This document shows positions 22,393 through 50,677 of a stretch of DNA of 64,000 nt, in pieces; within the stretch, counting starts at the first letter, position 1; every line of letters starts with the position of its first letter. The notes beneath the pieces were generated by a model. That model was not told the origin of the DNA. It did no database searches and saw only the letters and a program-made list of their open reading frames with translations. The position numbers and the translations under genes were made by a program. Source of the stretch: Mercurialis annua (taxonomy: Eukaryota > Streptophyta > Magnoliopsida > Malpighiales > Euphorbiaceae); assembly GCF_937616625.2 (NCBI RefSeq), contig NC_065571.1, forward strand, positions 43,678,651 through 43,742,650, written 5' to 3'.

Positions 22393-22569
22393 CTAGGTAG
22401 CACGGATTCGGACACGGATACGGAAAAACGGGACACTTGGACACGGCGAAACGGTATAATTTTAAAGTATCCTATGTAAAAAAATGAAGTTTCGTGTTTG
22501 AAATGTTGAGTGTCTGAAACGTTTCCGAAACGGAAAACGTTGATTGAATGAAATGTCCATACTACCTAG
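22393..22569. mobile_element. hAT-type MITE with 8-bp duplication
   Basis: The inverted ends CTAGGTAGCACGGA and TCCATACTACCTAG are flanked by exact 8-bp repeats GTGTTTAG (22385-22392 and 22570-22577). The interior has repeated GGACACGG words. A second copy in the opposite orientation is at 25504-25703. Confidence 0.85.
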
Positions 22570-22582
22570 GTGTTTAGTAATA

Positions 22583-23194
22583 GGCCTAATTCCTTAAAAA
22601 AACCCCACCTTGCACTTTTTTTTCGTTTATACCCTGACCTTGTAAAAACACCATTTGTACCCAATTTTGGGTTTTTATGTTTCATCCCTACCCAAAAGCA
22701 TTAAATTGTACTCTTTTCATTTGGAAAAGAGTTTAAAACATACTTTTTTCTATTTTAAAATATACAAATAAATCCTTAAACTTAAAAAATAATCAAATAC
22801 ATCCAAATAATTAAATTTTTTTCTAATTTTATAAAATAATAAAAAAATTAAAAAAATTATTATTATTTTTAGTTTTTTTGTCGTAAATATTTTTTTAAAA
22901 ATTAAAAAAATTCGGAAATATTTTTTTAAAAAATTAAAAAAAATTATTATTATTTTTAATTTTTTGAAAAAGATGGTATTTTTGTTCTATTAATAACATT
23001 AATATCTAATTAATATATAAATTAAAAATGAAGGATTGTTTTAAACTCTTTTTCAAATGAAAAGAGTACAATTTAATGCTTTTGGGTAGAGATGAAACAT
23101 AAAAACTTAAAATTGGGTACAAATGGTGTTTTTATAAGGTCAGGGTATAAACGAAAAAAAAGTACAAGGTGAGGGTTTTTTAAGGAATTAAGCC
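22583..23194. mobile_element. Mutator-like MITE, best-preserved copy
   Basis: TTAGTAATA at 22574-22582 and 23195-23203 is an exact 9-bp duplication. The inverted ends are about 170 bp and start GGCCTAATTCCTTAAAAAA and GGCTTAATTCCTTAAAAAA. It shows the uninterrupted CCCAATTTTGG site into which the nested element at 473-1406 inserted in a sister copy. Confidence 0.92.
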
Positions 23195-23293
23195 TTAGTA
23201 ATATTAACAAAAACTTTTCTTTTTAGCAATTCATTACATGGATTTTTTTTTTCAAAATTCGAAACAACGAATAATTTTCCATTAAAAAGACAT

Positions 23294-24011: not shown

Positions 24012-24884
24012 GAACAAAGGATCACTTTACCCCCTAAATTTGGCATGAAGTATCAAAAACGTCTAAATTGGCAAAAAGTGATCACTTTATCCTGAACTTG
24101 GTAAAATCGGGTAAAAAAAAAAACCCTCCCCACTCTCGCACAAAAGAGTGAAATACACTTTCTAATTTTCAAGGTGGTTTTTTTTTTCTCCAAGGTGGTT
24201 TTTAATAGTATAAGGTTTAAAATGATCCCTTTTTTATATTTTAAATTAATACCTAATAATTAAAAAAACAATTTAATCCCTTTAATTTAAAACTTTATAT
24301 AACAAATTAACCCTCAAATCTTATATACATAACAAATTAACCCCTAAAATTTATATTTTTAACAAAAAAGAATTCTTAGAATTTTTCCTGCCACCATTTT
24401 TTATGGCAACCCCACGGCTGTTCCTCACGGATTCGTAAGATTTGTTCTTCACGATTCGTGAAGAACATCTCCATGTTCTTGAAGAAGAACATTTCTTCGT
24501 TAAAAACAGCTTCTCAAGCGAGGTGCGTGAGGAGCAAATTTGCTCAGAGGGAACTGTTGCTCCTCGCCTCCGAGGAGCAACAACCTCTTTTTCCGCGAGG
24601 AGTCCTCCTCGCTAGAATTTTTTTTAAAATTGAACTTTTTTGGAAAAGATTCAAAAAAAAAGCTCATGATTAATTAAAGTGTAATTATGGTTAATTAGTG
24701 TTTAAATATAATTAGTTAGAGTAAATTATAAGTAATTAGAAATCCACTCTCCAATTAAGATGCCACGTCAGCATAAGAATGTTTTTGAGCCGGTTTTGTT
24801 AAATTTAGGGTAAATCCGGTTTTTTCAATTTGGACGTTTTTGATATTTTGTACCAAGTTGAGGGGGTAAAGTGATCCTTTGTTC
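24012..24884. mobile_element. Inverted-repeat element with GAACAAAGGATC ends
   Basis: The ends GAACAAAGGATCACTTTACC and its complement near 24884 match for about 60 bp (CAAAAACGTC..AATTG). The flanks ATTTCATTTA and ATTTCTTTA resemble a target duplication with one base lost. The core (24440-24620) is GC-richer and partly palindromic (GAGGAGCAA and TTGCTCCTC words). The 71-residue frame at 24458-24673 comes from this core and is not considered a gene. Confidence 0.72.
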
Positions 24885-25079
24885 ATTTCTTTATGATTGG
24901 GGAGGAGGACCATGCTAAAAATATACAAGTGTAGGAACCTAAAAATATATTTTGCCTAAATCTTCTCTGGTAACAGTATCCTAAAACCCTAATCGAAACT
25001 CCATAGTTTCAGACAATAAGCACAGCCTCATGTTGAACACAACCCAACACGATCGTCCGAAGTAGTTTTGTATTAAGAA

Positions 25080-25216
25080 AAGACAGAAGGAATACCGCCG
25101 CTATAGTGTGAGGTCTGTTTCCGCAATTTAGTTTGTGGCGGTTTCAAGTTCTTCGGACGAACCGTACGAGCAATCTCACGTACGGTTCCGGAAACCCTAC
25201 CGGCGATTTCTGTCTT
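25080..25216 (+). promoter_or_regulatory. Structured RNA with a group II intron domain V-like hairpin in the probable DHODH leader
   Basis: The core (25159-25188) is a hairpin: 9 bp (GAACCGTAC with GTACGGTTC), a 2-nt AC bulge on the 3' side, 3 bp (GAG with CTC) and a CAAT loop. The 3' half CTCACGTACGGTTC has the form usual in group II intron domain V, and the AC bulge is in the right place. The AGC catalytic triad reads AAC, and the upper stem is shorter than the usual 5 bp with a GNRA loop. Nested helices enclose the core: GGTTTC/GAAACC (25140-25145 with 25191-25196), CGCCG/CGGCG (25096-25100 with 25201-25205) and AAGACAGAA/TTCTGTCTT (25080-25088 with 25208-25216). It lies upstream of the DHODH ATG, on the same strand. 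Being transcribed as 5' UTR is inferred. Confidence 0.6.
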
Positions 25217-25371
25217 CCGGAGAGCCAGAAATCAGTCTCTAAAACTCTAAAAAGTCTATCTTTGTTAGTTTTGTTTATGAAAAGGGTTAATATCTCAGAT
25301 GAAATAGTTGCCAAATTGTTTGATTTACGTTTTTAAATATACATTTTTCTTCAATTTAATTGGCTTCCTAC

Positions 25372-25432
25372 GAGGTTCGAATTTCATACTTAACAGTCTT
25401 AAATAAAGACCATTGTAGTACCAATTGAGCTG
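25372..25432 (-). mobile_element. tRNA-like SINE fragment
   Basis: On the minus strand CAGCTCAATTGGTA (box A-like) is followed after about 40 bases by AATTCGAACCTC (box B-like). It does not fold into a full tRNA and lacks a clear tail, so a SINE or tRNA relic is the best reading. Confidence 0.45.
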
Positions 25433-25503
25433 CAGGCATCAGTGGGATAAGAATTTGGCGGTGTGCTATTGTTTGATATAAGGGAAGAAACAAAAATGTC
25501 GGT

Positions 25504-25703
25504 CTATGTAGCAAAGACCCTTCATTTATTCAATGTTTCCCGTTTCGGAAATGTGTCGGACACTAGATGTTTCGGACACAAAACCTCACTTTTTACGTAG
25601 AAAACCTTAAAATAACACCGTTTTTCCGTCTCTATGTCCAAGTGTCCCGTTTCTCCATGTCGTGTCCTGTTTTGTTTATCCGTGTCGTGTCCATCCTACC
25701 TAG
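25504..25703. mobile_element. Second copy of the hAT-type MITE, inverted
   Basis: Related to 22393-22569 on the other strand. It has the GGACAC and CCGTTTC words, ends in TCCATCCTACCTAG on the right and starts with a degenerate CTATGTAGCA on the left. The flanks ATGTCGG and ATGTCAG are similar. It would lie in the 5' region (possibly a leader intron) of the DHODH gene. Confidence 0.68.
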
Positions 25704-25966: not shown

Positions 25967-28900
25967 ATGATGGCTGCTCGGGCTTCAAGGAGGTTATTGA
26001 GAGACTTTTTGTATAAAAAAGGGACTGTTTCGGGTTATGTTGTTGGTGGGAGATGCTTCTCTTCTGTCCCAGAACGTCTTCCTAAAATACCTCACTTCTC
26101 TAGAAAAGTATTTTCTTCTTCTCTACCTATGTATACATTTGTATTTCTTAATTAGTTGGTCTAACTCTCAAGGTGAAATTTCTGTTTAATTTAAATTGTA
26201 GGGTAGGCTGCTGTCGGGAGCCACCATTGGACTTATTATTGCTGGAGGAGCCTATGTCAGTACCATGGATGAAGCATCTTTCTGGTATATCATTAAAATC
26301 CCTGATTAGTATGTAAAGGCTCCTTTTGTGTAGCTTGATGATGTTTCCGGTTTTGCTTATGCAAGTGATAGAAATAATACATAAGGCAAAAAACATTAGC
26401 AAGTTAACCAAATAGAGGCTTGCTCTGTTAACCTTCTAGCGTGTTGATTTCAGTCACTTTTTTCTAGTTCGAGTCGTAGTTCATGTGTTTTGTAGTGTTA
26501 TCTGAAGCTTATCCTAGATTACATGGTAATTCTGATACCTCGACATAAACTTATTCTGCATCAGCTATTAATTGCAGCGGCTGGCTATTCAATGCAACAA
26601 AACTTGTGAACCCTTTTTTTGCCCTCCTAGATGCTGAGGATGCTCATAAACTTGCTGTATCAGCTGCTGCTCGCGGTTGGGTTCCAAGGGAGAAGAGGCC
26701 AGACCCATCAATTTTAGAATTAGAGGTGTGGGGAAGGAAGTTCTCCAACCCTTTAGGTCTTGCTGCTGGATTTGATAAAAATGCTGAAGCTGTTGAAGGC
26801 TTGCTTGGTATGGGTTTTGGCTTTGTAGAGGTTGGTTCTGTCACTCCTGTTCCACAAGAGGGTAATCCAAAGCCACGCATTTTCAGATTGCGTGAGCAAA
26901 GGTGAGATTCATTCAGCCTCTTGTTTTTCTTGTGCCTAATTGCTAAGAATATTTGTAATTTTTGAATATTTGGTATGTAGAATGCTAGAGTGATGTTTAC
27001 CATTTGAAATCTCTAGAAGTGTTATAGCACTTATTTATACGATTTTCTGATCCTTTATGCCAGTGCAATTATCAACCAATTTTCTGATCCTTTTTGCCAG
27101 TGCAATTATCAACCGATGTGGCTTTAATAGCGAAGGCATTGTTGCTGTTGCAAAGCGTTTGGGTACTCAACATGGAAAGAGAAAGTTAGCCGAAACTTCA
27201 AGCACTTCAACTTCTCCAAGCGAAGACATCAAACATGGAGGTAAAGCTGGTCCTGGCATTCTTGGGGTAAATCTTGGAAAGAACAAGACAAGTGAGGATG
27301 CTGCGGCAGATTATGTTCAAGGGGTTCATACATTATCTCAGTATGCTGACTACCTGGTAATTGCTTTCTTTTTCTTATGTCCTTTTAAGCATTTTTTGAG
27401 CAGTGTCCACTTTTTTCTTTTCCTTTTCTTCATTCTATGAAACTTTCTTCACGCTTGTGAGTGCTATTTTCAATAATTTCTGTAGGGGATCTGGAACCCT
27501 ACCTGCAACTGCAGCCACTTAACTCAACTTCTCTCGGAAGACACTTCAATTTTCATAAAAATATATCTAAAGCAAGAAGTTATACATATACCACGAGTTG
27601 TATAGCCTATTTATGTGCCCAAAGTTGATGATTGACTCAATTTTTTGTCTTTGAAATGTAATTCATAAATCTCAGCATGTGCATATTGTTTTGATTACAA
27701 AAGATCCTACACGAGGCAAATTTTTATTTTTGAAGTCCATAATAATGGAAAGAAGTTCTGATCTTGAAACAATTGATCATTGATAATTTTATTTAGGTAG
27801 GATGTTCATGAAAGATACTTTATTTTGTGATTAGAGCTAGGTCTGATATATAAATTTCATGAAACTAGGCTCACATATGCATCCCTTGTTTATTTTCATA
27901 TGTGTACTGGTAATCAGGCAGATAAAAAACATTCTTCTACTAGCCTTGTGTGCTAGTAGGACCTAGTGCTATCAAGAAAACCATGCATAAGACTAGGCTT
28001 GTAGTTAGCATTGCTTCATACAAAGATGAAGATTCCAAATTATAGTTGCTACATTGCTATAATTCTAATAAGAGTGAAAAATTGAATAAAGCACTTGAAT
28101 TTTCTTGTTTCCTGGAATGCTATTAAATACAGTATTCAGATGCTCGAAGAAAAAAACATTCTTTTATTTGACTTGTGTACTAATTAGGGTTTCAACAAGA
28201 AAAAGGAACTCAATTTTAAGGCCTAAAATGGTAGTCCAACAGTTTAATTCCTGGAATCTGACACCTGCAGCTGTTTGAATTAAATAGCTTCAAATCCAAA
28301 AAAGGTGACAATAAGGTGCAAAGCCTCAACCTGTCTAGGACCATTTTTATTTACTTCATTTTTCATCCTTCTTTCCTGAAGCTTCTTGTTGATTGCATAG
28401 AATTCTCAATCCATCATAGCTAGGTCAAATTACAGATGAATTTGTAAGCTTTTAGTGCCATTTGGATATCTCTGACTGTCTCAAGATGCATTGAACTTCT
28501 TTCTTTGTTGGATATGTGATTGTAGCTATCATCTTCTATTGTGTCTTTTTATTTACCAGTGTTCCGAGACCTAGTTCTTTCCAATATTTTGTTCTGCGTG
28601 CGCTTACTTGAATTATGTTTTGTTTGTACTATGCTGACATTGTATACTTTCCTCCTCTTATAGGTTATTAATGTTTCATCGCCCAATACTCCTGGGTTGC
28701 GAATGCTTCAGGGGAGAAAACAATTAAAGGATCTTGTGAAAAAGGTATGAAGAAATAAGATATAGGGTGAACTTTTTGTTTTTATATAATTTCTTTTATG
28801 GTCTGATGCTGATTTAAGACTTTTGCTTGCATTTAGGTGGTAAACTTATTATTTTCTTTATGATTATTTTATGGTCTGGTGCTGAATCAAGTTCTTGGCC

Positions 28901-31900
28901 TTTTCTTTTCGTTTAGGTTCAAGCTGCTCGTGATGAAATGCAGTGGGGTGAGGAGGGCCCACCTCCTATGCTTGTAAAGATTGCTCCTGACTTGTCAAAG
29001 GAAGACCTTGAAGACATTGCAGCGGTATGTAAATGCTCTTAATTTTTATATGTCATCATATACTTTCACATATTGATTTCTTATACATGCTCCTTCTGAT
29101 TATAGGTTGCCCTTGCTTTGCGATTGGATGGACTGGTAGGTTTTCTTCTCATTGAAAAACCAGACATGTTTTGTCTAGCTTTAAATATTGACATTCCAAA
29201 CTTGAGAATTTTGGTTGTTTCTTAAATCTGATAATATATTCTGGTTAGTATTTCTAGATTATTTATGCTGCATGCTGATATTATTAATGTTAATAGATAA
29301 TTCTCTAATACATTTCATATTTACTCTGATTAGTTGCTTCATCTGTTGAAATATTTTATTCCTTTAACTGGACATCTCCTACTGTTTCAGATGAAATGGA
29401 TGTAAATTTTCCCTTACTTTAGCGTAACTGTCTAATGTAGTCAATGAGAAGAAGGGCTTTAGTGCCAATGTGGATATTAATTGTTGGCACTGACATTCTA
29501 CTTTGGTATTATCATTGGATTCACTTTAATAAATTTAAGCTGTCTGGGGATGTGTTAAATTGCTGGTTCCACCCAATTGTGAACATAGAAGCACCGATAT
29601 GTTATTCCAAGTAAGATTTATGTCATGTCAGCACCTTTGAGATATCTGAACTTCACTCTAGGTCTGAGCATGAGACTTGGAGATCCTGAGTCATATTGAA
29701 ATCTTGAGCCAAAAATCTCCATTGAATAGAGATTGTTTTTTGATTTGGTTCATGATCTCATGTGTTATCCAAACCAAGAACCGCACCAAACCAAAACTAG
29801 AATCAATTTTCATTGATTTTAAGTTTAATTTTATATAACATAATATGTGTATCATTATTTGCATATCACTTATTGAATTTATAATGAAATCAACAGTCAA
29901 CTGATATTTTTAATTAAATACAAATCACTATTTAAAATTTAGAAGAATTTATTTACTTAAGTATGTATATATAATATATTTACATAAGTATATATTACAA
30001 AGTATTATTATACAAGTGTATATTACATCTAATTAATCATTATTCTAATGAATATAATTGAATATGTATTTATACTTATGTAAAAACACAAACACAAACA
30101 CACACATATAATTTTTCATAAATTTATGTGAAGTTCACTTTATGCTGAAAAAGAAATTGCATCTGATTATGTCAATAGTGTATTTTCTATTGATGAACTC
30201 AAAATGCTGGTGTTTTGTATAATTTCACTATGTCATATAGGTTTAGTAATTGCAAATTAAGGACTATTGGATTGAATTTTTTCTAAGTAATTTTGATTTG
30301 CTTGGTCTTGGATAGATTATATCAAATACAACTATATCAAGGCCGGATTCTGTAAGCAAGTGCCCTGCGGCCAAGGAAACTGGCGGTTTAAGTGGCAAAC
30401 CTCTATTCAACCTGTCTACAGACATCTTGAAAGAGATGTATATTCTGACAAGGGTATATGTCATTTTTTTGTACATTTTTTTGTTTCTTTATTTAGTCAA
30501 TCTCTTATGCATCAAGCATTGGTAATTTGCAATGATCACCATTTTGGGATCCAAATGGGGATTTTTCTTAGGAGGCGTCACCAAGAAATCGGAATGTTAT
30601 AGTCAAAAAATTGTTGTCTGTAATGCTCTGATATTTTATGCTTAGAGTCGCTAGAGCCTGTCTATAGTGCACCATGGGGAAGTACATTATTTCTGTGATG
30701 TTATGGGTTATATCTTTTCAAATGTCAAAATTGTTGTCTGATTCCTACTGTTATGGAGGGGTCAAAGAATCTTCCTCGCTATTTTCTCTTCTTATGAACT
30801 ACTATCTACACTTACTGCACAATGCTTAATGTTATTAAATAGTCAAAGGATCCCTGTCACTTCTATATAGATACTCCAAGATTTTGTTTACAAACATGCA
30901 GAAACATATAGGCACTCGCACATTCATTCATCTAGAAATGGATGCCTTGACACACAATATTTTCCATCCAATTGTCCGTTTGATCCCTCTTTCTCTGCTG
31001 TGATTGCTGAACCGTAAACATATGAAGTAGTAGGTGGCACACTCAATTTTGTAGAATTGTTTTGTAAATTTATGTACTATGGATTTGGACAGACGCGAAG
31101 AGAAAAAGAAAAGATCTTAGAAAAGAAACAAATTGAACTCAGTCATTGCCAATGAATTTCATACTTCATTCTGTACATCAATAGTTGAGTGTGCCATGCT
31201 ACTTCTAATTTTAAAGCCTTTGAGAGATTTGCTTTTTGTTTTATGTGAAAGATGATGCATTGTCTTATCAATAGAATATTTTTTGAACATTGTCAATAGA
31301 ATGTTTGGGCACTTCTGTTTTTTCTTGGAATGCATGGATTGTTTGTATACGGTTTTTCCCTCTTTATGTATAGTTTTTCTTTAATATTGAGTAATTCCTG
31401 ATAGCTTGAATGTTTCTTATCAGGGAAAGATTCCTTTAATAGCTTGTGGGGGTGTAAGCAGGTATGACCTTTATAGTGTACATCTCTTCCAGTGTCACCT
31501 GGCTGTGAACATGGATTGGTATAAGCTTTGTGTTTTCATTTGTCAATCTTATTTATTTCCATTAATACAGCGGCGCTGATGCATACACGAAAATTCGAGC
31601 TGGAGCTACTCTTGTTCAGATTTATACTGCATTTGCCTATGGAGGGCCTGCCCTAATTCCTCAAATAAAGGTAGTATACTATCATGCTTTTATAAAATTG
31701 GGCCAAAAGGAATTTTGCGAGAAAAAAAATGAGAATTTAAGGGTGACATGAAATTCTAACTATCTTCTAGCTGAAAGTGCATTTGCATTTACTACTATTT
31801 AAATTGTTGTGTCGTGGCTCAGGCCAATAGCCATGATTTGTGGACGGAGGAGTTTATGTTGAGAAAAAAAGAAATGGAAATCTATTACATGTTCGACTTC

Positions 31901-32159
31901 TCACCATTCAAAGTTGAGATCAATTCCGGTTGATGACATACATTGTCGACCGTATTCTCCAAAATTAGGATTTCTAGTCCTTGACCCAAAATGTTATAGA
32001 CATAATTGTTGATTAGGTATGAAAATCGATAAAAGGGAAAAGGAAAACGAAGTAGTTGTGTTTAATTTTGTGAATGTGATGCAGGCCGACTTGGCGGAAT
32101 GCTTAGAAAGAGACGGCTTCAAGTCCGTTAAAGAAGCAGTTGGTGCAGATTATAGATAA
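25967..32159 (+). CDS. PYRD: Dihydroorotate dehydrogenase (quinone), mitochondrial
   Basis: Eleven exons: 25967-26107, 26202-26284, 26578-26901, 27101-27356, 28664-28744, 28917-29024, 29106-29135 (only 30 bp), 30316-30453, 31424-31461, 31571-31670 and 32085-32159. They give 457 residues, the size expected for plant DHODH. The start [11 protein letters not shown] is Arg/Ser-rich like a mitochondrial presequence. A hydrophobic segment ([15 protein letters not shown]) at about residues 50-65 would anchor it in the inner membrane. FMN and substrate motifs follow: [17 protein letters not shown], the catalytic-serine region [19 protein letters not shown] and ACGGVSSG. The enzyme oxidises dihydroorotate to orotate with ubiquinone in pyrimidine synthesis. 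Residues after HGKRKLAE contain the Ser/Thr-rich insert I remember from plant homologues. The exon 4 acceptor is tandemly duplicated (27043-27116). Confidence 0.96.
27043..27116 (+). repeat. 37-bp tandem duplication across a splice acceptor
   Basis: Units 27043-27079 and 27080-27116 differ at about two bases and each reads TTTTCTGATCCTTT.TGCCAG followed by TGCAATTATCAACC. The second AG (27099-27100) gives the conserved protein. The first (27062-27063) would add 37 bases and shift the frame. Confidence 0.92.
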
Positions 32160-50192: not shown

Positions 50193-50677
50193 AAAATGTG
50201 CAACTGTGACTGTGATTCTCAATGTATAGGTATTATACAGCTACAATTTTGATATGTTACACTGAAGGAAAAAAAAAACAATTATCACTGCATCTCAACT
50301 CATCGGCCTTTGCCTATGGACTAAACCCTCTAATTCCCCAAATCACCTACTTCAGGTCTGCAATGCATTAGCCACTATAGATGCACAAAAGCCGAACCAA
50401 GCTAAATAACTAGAATAAACCGACAAATTTGATTCGGTTCGGTTTTGAAAATAAAATAATTTAGCTCACTTTTGATACAAACCAAGCCGAAAGACTGAAC
50501 CGAACCGGTGGGTTTGAAAATCTTAAATCCTTTGTAAAAAAATCAGTTTGGCTCAATTTTTTTAAAATCAAATTATGTTCGGTTTGATGTAAATCGAATG
50601 CACATCCTATTTGGCATATGATGCACCCTTGTATCTGCATCAAGTCAAAAATGAAGTGCATTTATGTGTGCCTTGGA
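50193..50677. other. Spacer with CCGAACC repeats
   Basis: Between the LTR and the 3' end of the decarboxylase-family gene. It has CGGTTCGGTTTTG and CCGAACCGG words like those at 1-205. It probably includes the 3' UTR of the minus-strand gene. Confidence 0.4.

Follow-up and report, generated by a model that had tools for sequence, protein, structure and literature searches.

The DHODH Locus and Its Upstream Region

The window, that is, the whole 64-kb stretch of DNA analyzed here, corresponds to C2:43678651-43742650 of the Mercurialis annua genome (451 Mb in 55 contigs). The gene for DHODH (mitochondrial, quinone) was located in it by tblastn of two proteins, P0001 and P0072, with PF01180 detected on homologues. 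P0072 is the Mercurialis annua DHODH isoform X2. It is aligned at the locus in 10 tblastn pieces, 5 of which are 100% identical; the remaining pieces cross exon ends or enter introns. This isoform begins at 26037 and is silent on the leader. The start ATG is at 25970, and a second in-frame ATG is seen at 25967. DHODH is single copy: all 8 genome matches at E ≤ 1e-5 lie within its own locus, and at this threshold no second copy is available genome-wide for comparison. The elements around the gene start are as follows:

24012–24884, no strand: MITE-like element whose 65-nt terminal inverted repeats are 86% complementary, adjoining the DHODH promoter region upstream
25503–25667, no strand: dispersed repeat lying 3' of the hairpin and 5' of the DHODH start codon, with at least 41 further matches at 75–86% identity (40 of 895 candidates scored)
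25970–32156, + strand: DHODH coding exons

The upstream neighbor is a + strand gene with a putative methyltransferase-like motif, read by eye, which probably ends before about 22,000. Several repeats are located between this gene and DHODH. A relative of the 25503–25667 repeat is found at 22410–22569 in the opposite orientation, and a long inverted repeat with 159-nt arms (94% complementary) occupies 22582–23195. The hairpin studied here lies in 24885–25500, between the MITE-like element and the dispersed repeat. Its surroundings, 25040–25260 (221 bases), match only themselves in the genome in a search that skips very common words, and a large or recent organelle insert was dismissed on this basis.

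The original prediction placed the hairpin in nuclear DNA, in the sense orientation upstream of DHODH. Both the tblastn results and the strand of the best model match described below agree with this. The GC content is 0.54 and 0.48 across 25150–25249 and then falls sharply to 0.26. Judging from base composition, this block would fit a first leader exon, with the ATG at 25970 in a second exon. Splice donors were scored by donor-site frequencies, and none is strong (3.4 at 25113, 2.8 at 25461, and 2.6 at 25375). The best one is upstream of the hairpin, and thus the hairpin would be intronic if it were used. A position of the hairpin in the DHODH leader is plausible. Among the open-licence papers listed, titles and abstract beginnings contained nothing on point about a plant DHODH leader, nor any report of a nuclear leader element resembling domain V (D5) of group II introns.

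Sequence and Fold of the Hairpin

The hairpin letters and their position, as first described, were verified in the sequence:

25159–25188, + strand: D5-like hairpin with arms GAACCGTACG and CGTACGGTTC and the inner sequence GAG CAAT CTC, seen as an inverted repeat and scored 28.4 bits by a D5 model of the same genome and 27.1 bits by RF04357

In full, it reads GAACCGTACGAG-CAAT-CTCACGTACGGTTC. The two arms constitute a perfect 10-bp inverted repeat. The same arms separated by a loop of 2–10 nt were found in none of the viral contigs and none of the genome contigs searched. The fold first proposed consists of a 9-bp stem, an AC bulge, and a short upper stem. The letters for all of these are present, with the AC on the 3' side, but this is not the best fold. 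The evaluated energy is −13.5 kcal/mol for the D5 fold with its 3-bp upper stem, versus −13.9 kcal/mol for an alternative that lacks the bulge, with 10 bp in the stem and an open loop of 10 nt. In the ensemble, the upper-stem pairs have probabilities of 0.23–0.33.

Group II D5 has an AGC catalytic triad, of which variants are known, and a GNRA-like tetraloop atop a 5-bp upper stem. The hairpin has AAC at the triad, whereas 15 of 16 organelle D5 sequences of this genome have AGC and one has AGT. The loss of the catalytic triad, already recognized in the original prediction, is thus evident. The loop is CAAU on a 3-bp upper stem.

Two other identities were dismissed. ARAGORN detected no tRNA in the window, which leaves no tRNA-like element here. 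No ATG-started frame of at least 8 codons spans the hairpin, which speaks against a protein-coding sequence. A tblastn match of P0001 residues 24–43 at 25164–25223 (E 1.0) was judged to be chance.

Similarity to the Plastid ycf3 Intron 1 D5

By local alignment, the closest relative among the compared loci is the D5 of plastid ycf3 intron 1:

25155–25193, + strand: full extent of similarity to the plastid ycf3 intron 1 D5, 34 of 39 bases identical plus a 4-nt gap

The aligned sequence is GGACGAACCGTACGAG----CAATCTCACGTACGGTTCCGGAA, and the alignment against the plastid D5 ends at both sides. Copies of this D5 are found at five genomic loci (L006, L007, L008, L034, and L036). trnS-GGA is located near the D5 in L006 and L007. 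The exon 3' of the matching D5 in L007 reads GNYAEALQNYYEAMRLEI in a by-eye translation, which we take to be Ycf3. Based on the nearby trnS-GGA and this exon, the D5 was assigned to plastid ycf3 intron 1.

The hairpin and the ycf3 D5 have in common the 17-mer AATCTCACGTACGGTTC, the AC bulge sequence, and the GGA/GGAA flanks. They differ in the triad (AAC for AGC), in the base topping the lower stem (C for U), and in length, the hairpin being 4 bases shorter in the loop and upper stem. In addition, the hairpin is isolated in nuclear DNA, with the other intron domains unrecognized. Read from plastid to window, the alignment has five substitutions: G to C, G to A, T to C, A to C, and T to C. The two located in the stem each change a wobble pair (G-U or U-G) to a Watson–Crick pair.

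The similarity does not extend into the flanks. A near-identical organelle segment had been named beforehand as a finding that would speak for a random recent insert, and none was found for the flanks. When the hairpin is masked, the best score is 12.8 (two rows aligning N against N being discarded), no better than the 11.4–14.0 of shuffled queries, which covered fewer loci. No similarity of the flanks to the compared organelle intron copies was found, and inspection of the predicted fold by eye showed nothing like a D6 stem carrying a bulged A; by flank comparison and predicted fold, the context of D1–D4 and D6 appears to be missing. An intact group II intron or a larger intron fragment was rejected, as the flanks are unrelated and no match reaches an Rfam gathering score. 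As quoted in an excerpt of one NUPT survey, at least 100 bp and at least 90% identity are demanded (PMC3989485), whereas the present match covers 39 bases with 34 identical.

Significance of the D5 Likeness

The hairpin matches two Rfam models over their full length on the + strand, RF04357 (Plastid-ndhA-ndhB-2 group II-D5) and RF00029 (Intron_gpII), but scores below both gathering thresholds. The scores are 27.1 bits versus 53 for RF04357 (E 9.1e-4 over 701 bases, both strands, multiplied by 4227 families) and 19.1 bits versus 40 for RF00029 (E 0.32). The covariance-model search suggested at the outset yielded no match at the gathering score in the 64-kb window, while a clear sub-threshold match is present.

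Another model, R1, was built from 16 distinct organelle D5 sequences of the same genome, with the window hairpin excluded. The 16 versions come from 37 loci (L030–L066), which are 37 of the 46 RF00029 matches in the genome; near-duplicates and decayed copies were omitted, as were L042, L057, L059, and L062, where the simple matcher hit the wrong spot or strand. The background of 264 kb consists of the window and 20 hand-picked 10-kb stretches (L010 adjoins the window). R1 gives the hairpin 28.4 bits on the + strand, with E 9.9e-6 over the 264 kb, and 12.4 bits on the − strand, consistent with the sense orientation. The runner-up scores 15.7 bits. This second-best match in the window, at 50387–50450, is a weak hairpin with E 0.081 over 264 kb and is probably due to chance.

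In plain alignment, the ycf3 intron 1 D5 gives a score of 22, the best among the organelle D5 sequences, versus 11.4–14.0 for the 20 shuffled queries, which were aligned to L030–L066 only. With loose gap settings, shuffled queries mostly equaled or exceeded the real score. The 569 pair-preserving decoys peaked at 17.4 when aligned to the real 264 kb and at 17.6 when aligned to random DNA, and the maximum over 14,311 random 20-kb chunks was 19.0.

These results, together with the sub-threshold Rfam matches, bear out the D5 likeness first noticed by eye, which in sequence terms clearly exceeds chance for this window. Over 264 kb, a single D5 query has an expectation of about 1e-5, and 16 queries have one of about 2e-4. 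On the scale of the whole 451-Mb genome, where the expectation is about 0.02–0.6, the same likeness appears borderline. The fitted expectation for one D5 query over 902 Mb (both strands) is 0.035 from the random chunks and 0.023 from the decoys, rising to about 0.6 if the 16 D5 sequences are counted as independent. R1 scaled by length to the genome gives about 0.017, by a rough calibration. RF04357, at 27.0 bits in the whole-genome search, has E 0.153. For RF00029, about 49 matches at 19.1 bits would be expected by chance in 902 Mb by scaling, which is non-significant genome-wide. At E ≤ 10, RF04357 also has matches in 11 of 14 control genomes, 0 of which are over the cut-off.

Perfect hairpins are numerous in this genome, and one of them might simply happen to bear a D5-like 3' arm. 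If the hairpin is a perfect palindrome, its 5' arm becomes D5-like automatically, with Watson–Crick pairs where D5 has wobbles. Such hairpins are abundant: 73 overlapping starts of hairpins with at least 10 bp, a short loop, and an arm GC of at least half are present in the 264 kb of real sequence, against only 1 start in 2,640 kb of shuffled sequence. The unrelated flanks, the Rfam scores far under gathering, and a genome-wide expectation that is not negligible (0.153 for RF04357; 0.023–0.035 per D5 for the alignments) point in the same direction. They are countered by the small expectations over 264 kb (R1 and plain alignment alike) and by the decoy scores, the tail of which is no heavier on real than on random DNA. 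Chance is kept as an explanation because the candidate was picked after a reader had noticed something. It is unlikely, though it deserves more weight than the two alternatives discussed below.

A Candidate Pair of SBP/SPL Sites

A motif scan reveals two short sites within the hairpin arms:

25162–25168, + strand: CCGTACG, fitting the SBP/SPL consensus NNGTACR
25179–25185, − strand: second CCGTACG, inverted

The SBP consensus is given as NNGTACR in an excerpt of a published study (PMC3520712), and both sites fit it. This inverted pair could bind SBP/SPL factors as DNA in the DHODH promoter, with the RNA fold being incidental. These two are the only CCGTACG in the 64-kb window, and the 200-kb genome sample contains 2. 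The core GTAC is, however, frequent, with 296 hits in the window counted by strand, and most D5 sequences here contain CCGTA/TACGG. For the latter reason, the CCGTACG pair may be a by-product. The paired SBP/SPL sites are candidates, and their sequence may simply be that of D5. As an explanation of the hairpin, binding at the DNA level is improbable, and its weight is about equal to that of the RNA exaptation considered next.

Folding of the Wider Candidate Leader Segment

The longer segments contain additional elements:

25030–25065, + strand: 11-codon upstream ORF MLNTTQHDRPK, if transcribed; its final codons reach into the 5' arm of the competing helix
25054–25062, + strand: 5' arm of a competing helix in the leader, pairing with 25151–25159, inside an inverted repeat
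25151–25159, + strand: 3' arm of the same helix, overlapping the D5-like stem by one base (the arm's last, the stem's first)
25205–25233, + strand: neighboring hairpin, an inverted repeat in the minimum free energy fold of 24985–25250, which takes the 3' arm of the proposed outer stem

The outer stem 25080–25088/25208–25216, proposed originally as an enclosure of the hairpin, does not hold up. Its pairs have probabilities of 0.55–1.0 when 25080–25216 is folded alone, but 0.0 in both 24985–25250 and 25040–25250. In these longer segments, the helix 25054–25062/25151–25159 is predicted at 0.93–1.0 and 0.89–1.0, respectively, and in the D5-like stem the probabilities of the outermost two pairs fall to 0.06–0.10 and 0.37–0.50. 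The stability of 25080–25216 has a z of −3.13 (1 of 200 dinucleotide shuffles is as stable), and that of 25040–25250 has a z of −2.44 (3 of 200). By these models, the putative leader seems to be more stable than expected by chance to a modest degree.

It can be speculated that a former D5 has been kept by selection as a stem-loop in the leader RNA that binds a protein or controls translation, with the helix 25054–25062/25151–25159 in competition. None of the analyses supports the exaptation, translational control, maturase binding, or switch originally proposed. The sense orientation, the stronger pairing at both changed stem positions, the stability above shuffles, and the GC-rich block followed by a drop, as at the end of a leader exon, are all consistent with such a role. 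Against selection for the D5 fold, the bulged form is the minority fold, neither the GNRA loop nor two of the upper-stem pairs survive, and the outer stem depends on which segment is folded. Besides, no strong donor follows the GC block, and the best donor would leave the hairpin in an intron. This is the most interesting of the rival explanations and the least likely one. A fuller version appears more doubtful still: a D5 captured from the plastid, catalytically dead and stabilized, would have been kept in the DHODH leader and would control the expression of a mitochondrial enzyme, for example via the competing helix or via a protein formerly engaged in splicing.

Organelle D5 Copies in the Nuclear Genome and the Origin of the Hairpin

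Nuclear copies of organelle D5 are common in this genome by model searches. RF00029 has at least 46 matches at E ≤ 1e-3, 40 of which are over the cut-off (57 of 21,910 candidates scored). RF04357 has at least 68 matches at E ≤ 10, including 45 at E ≤ 1e-3 and 20 over the cut-off, with 78 of 304,188 candidates scored; the window hairpin is absent among the matches listed. At L061 (C3:42495128-42495395), roughly 78 bases spanning the ycf3 D5 are seen by eye amid unrelated DNA. It follows from L061 that a plastid piece around this D5 has entered the nucleus at least once here. An identical RF04357 score of 55.2 is seen at L061 and at C3:21570968, 29208796, 30169093, 34149002, and 36058096. These six equal-scoring places on C3 suggest a dispersed repeat bearing a captured plastid intron domain.

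The best explanation of the hairpin is a very short remnant of organelle DNA that lies in the promoter or the first leader exon of DHODH and has lost its intron function. We put the probability of this at roughly 0.48, a little under one in two. The R1 match, the alignment score, and the shared 17-mer, as well as the common nuclear D5 copies and the example of L061, argue for it. Against it, no plastid similarity flanks the hairpin, the surrounding region is single copy, and the match falls on D5 instead of on an arbitrary plastid stretch. The likeness is also borderline genome-wide. C-to-T or G-to-A changes dominate the decay of organelle inserts according to an excerpt of a review (PMC7037861), and only 1 of the 5 substitutions here is of this kind.

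If the hairpin is such a relic, a fragment of organelle DNA of about 40 bases, closest to the ycf3 intron 1 D5, would have entered the nucleus and stayed at this site. In the excerpted part of the same review (PMC7037861), organelle DNA is described as a possible filler when breaks are repaired, and introns or untranslated regions are said to harbor most organelle inserts. Its losses would then comprise the AGC triad, two pairs of the upper stem, and the GNRA loop. The changes from wobble to Watson–Crick pairs in the stem may reflect hairpin-templated correction in DNA. Because of these losses and the unrecognized D1–D4 and D6, the hairpin is unable to act as an intron domain; a missing triad and missing domains rule out group II intron catalysis. 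A function under selection is presumably absent. The present role would be at most passive, a stable stem-loop (about −14 kcal/mol) in the leader if transcribed.

A comparable case is said to exist: going by its title, a work of Knoop and Brennicke from 1991 reportedly described an organelle intron sequence inserted in the 5' flank of a nuclear lectin gene. Both cases would place organelle intron sequence 5' of a plant nuclear gene. The present one differs in that it comprises about 40 bases and that its organelle derivation is one that we infer.

The hairpin is interesting if conserved and ordinary otherwise. As a stray copy, it would be a small example of organelle ribozyme pieces landing beside nuclear genes and so becoming available for recruitment there. 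If it proves to be conserved upstream of DHODH in relatives, the catalytic domain of an organelle intron would have been reused as an element of a nuclear mRNA.
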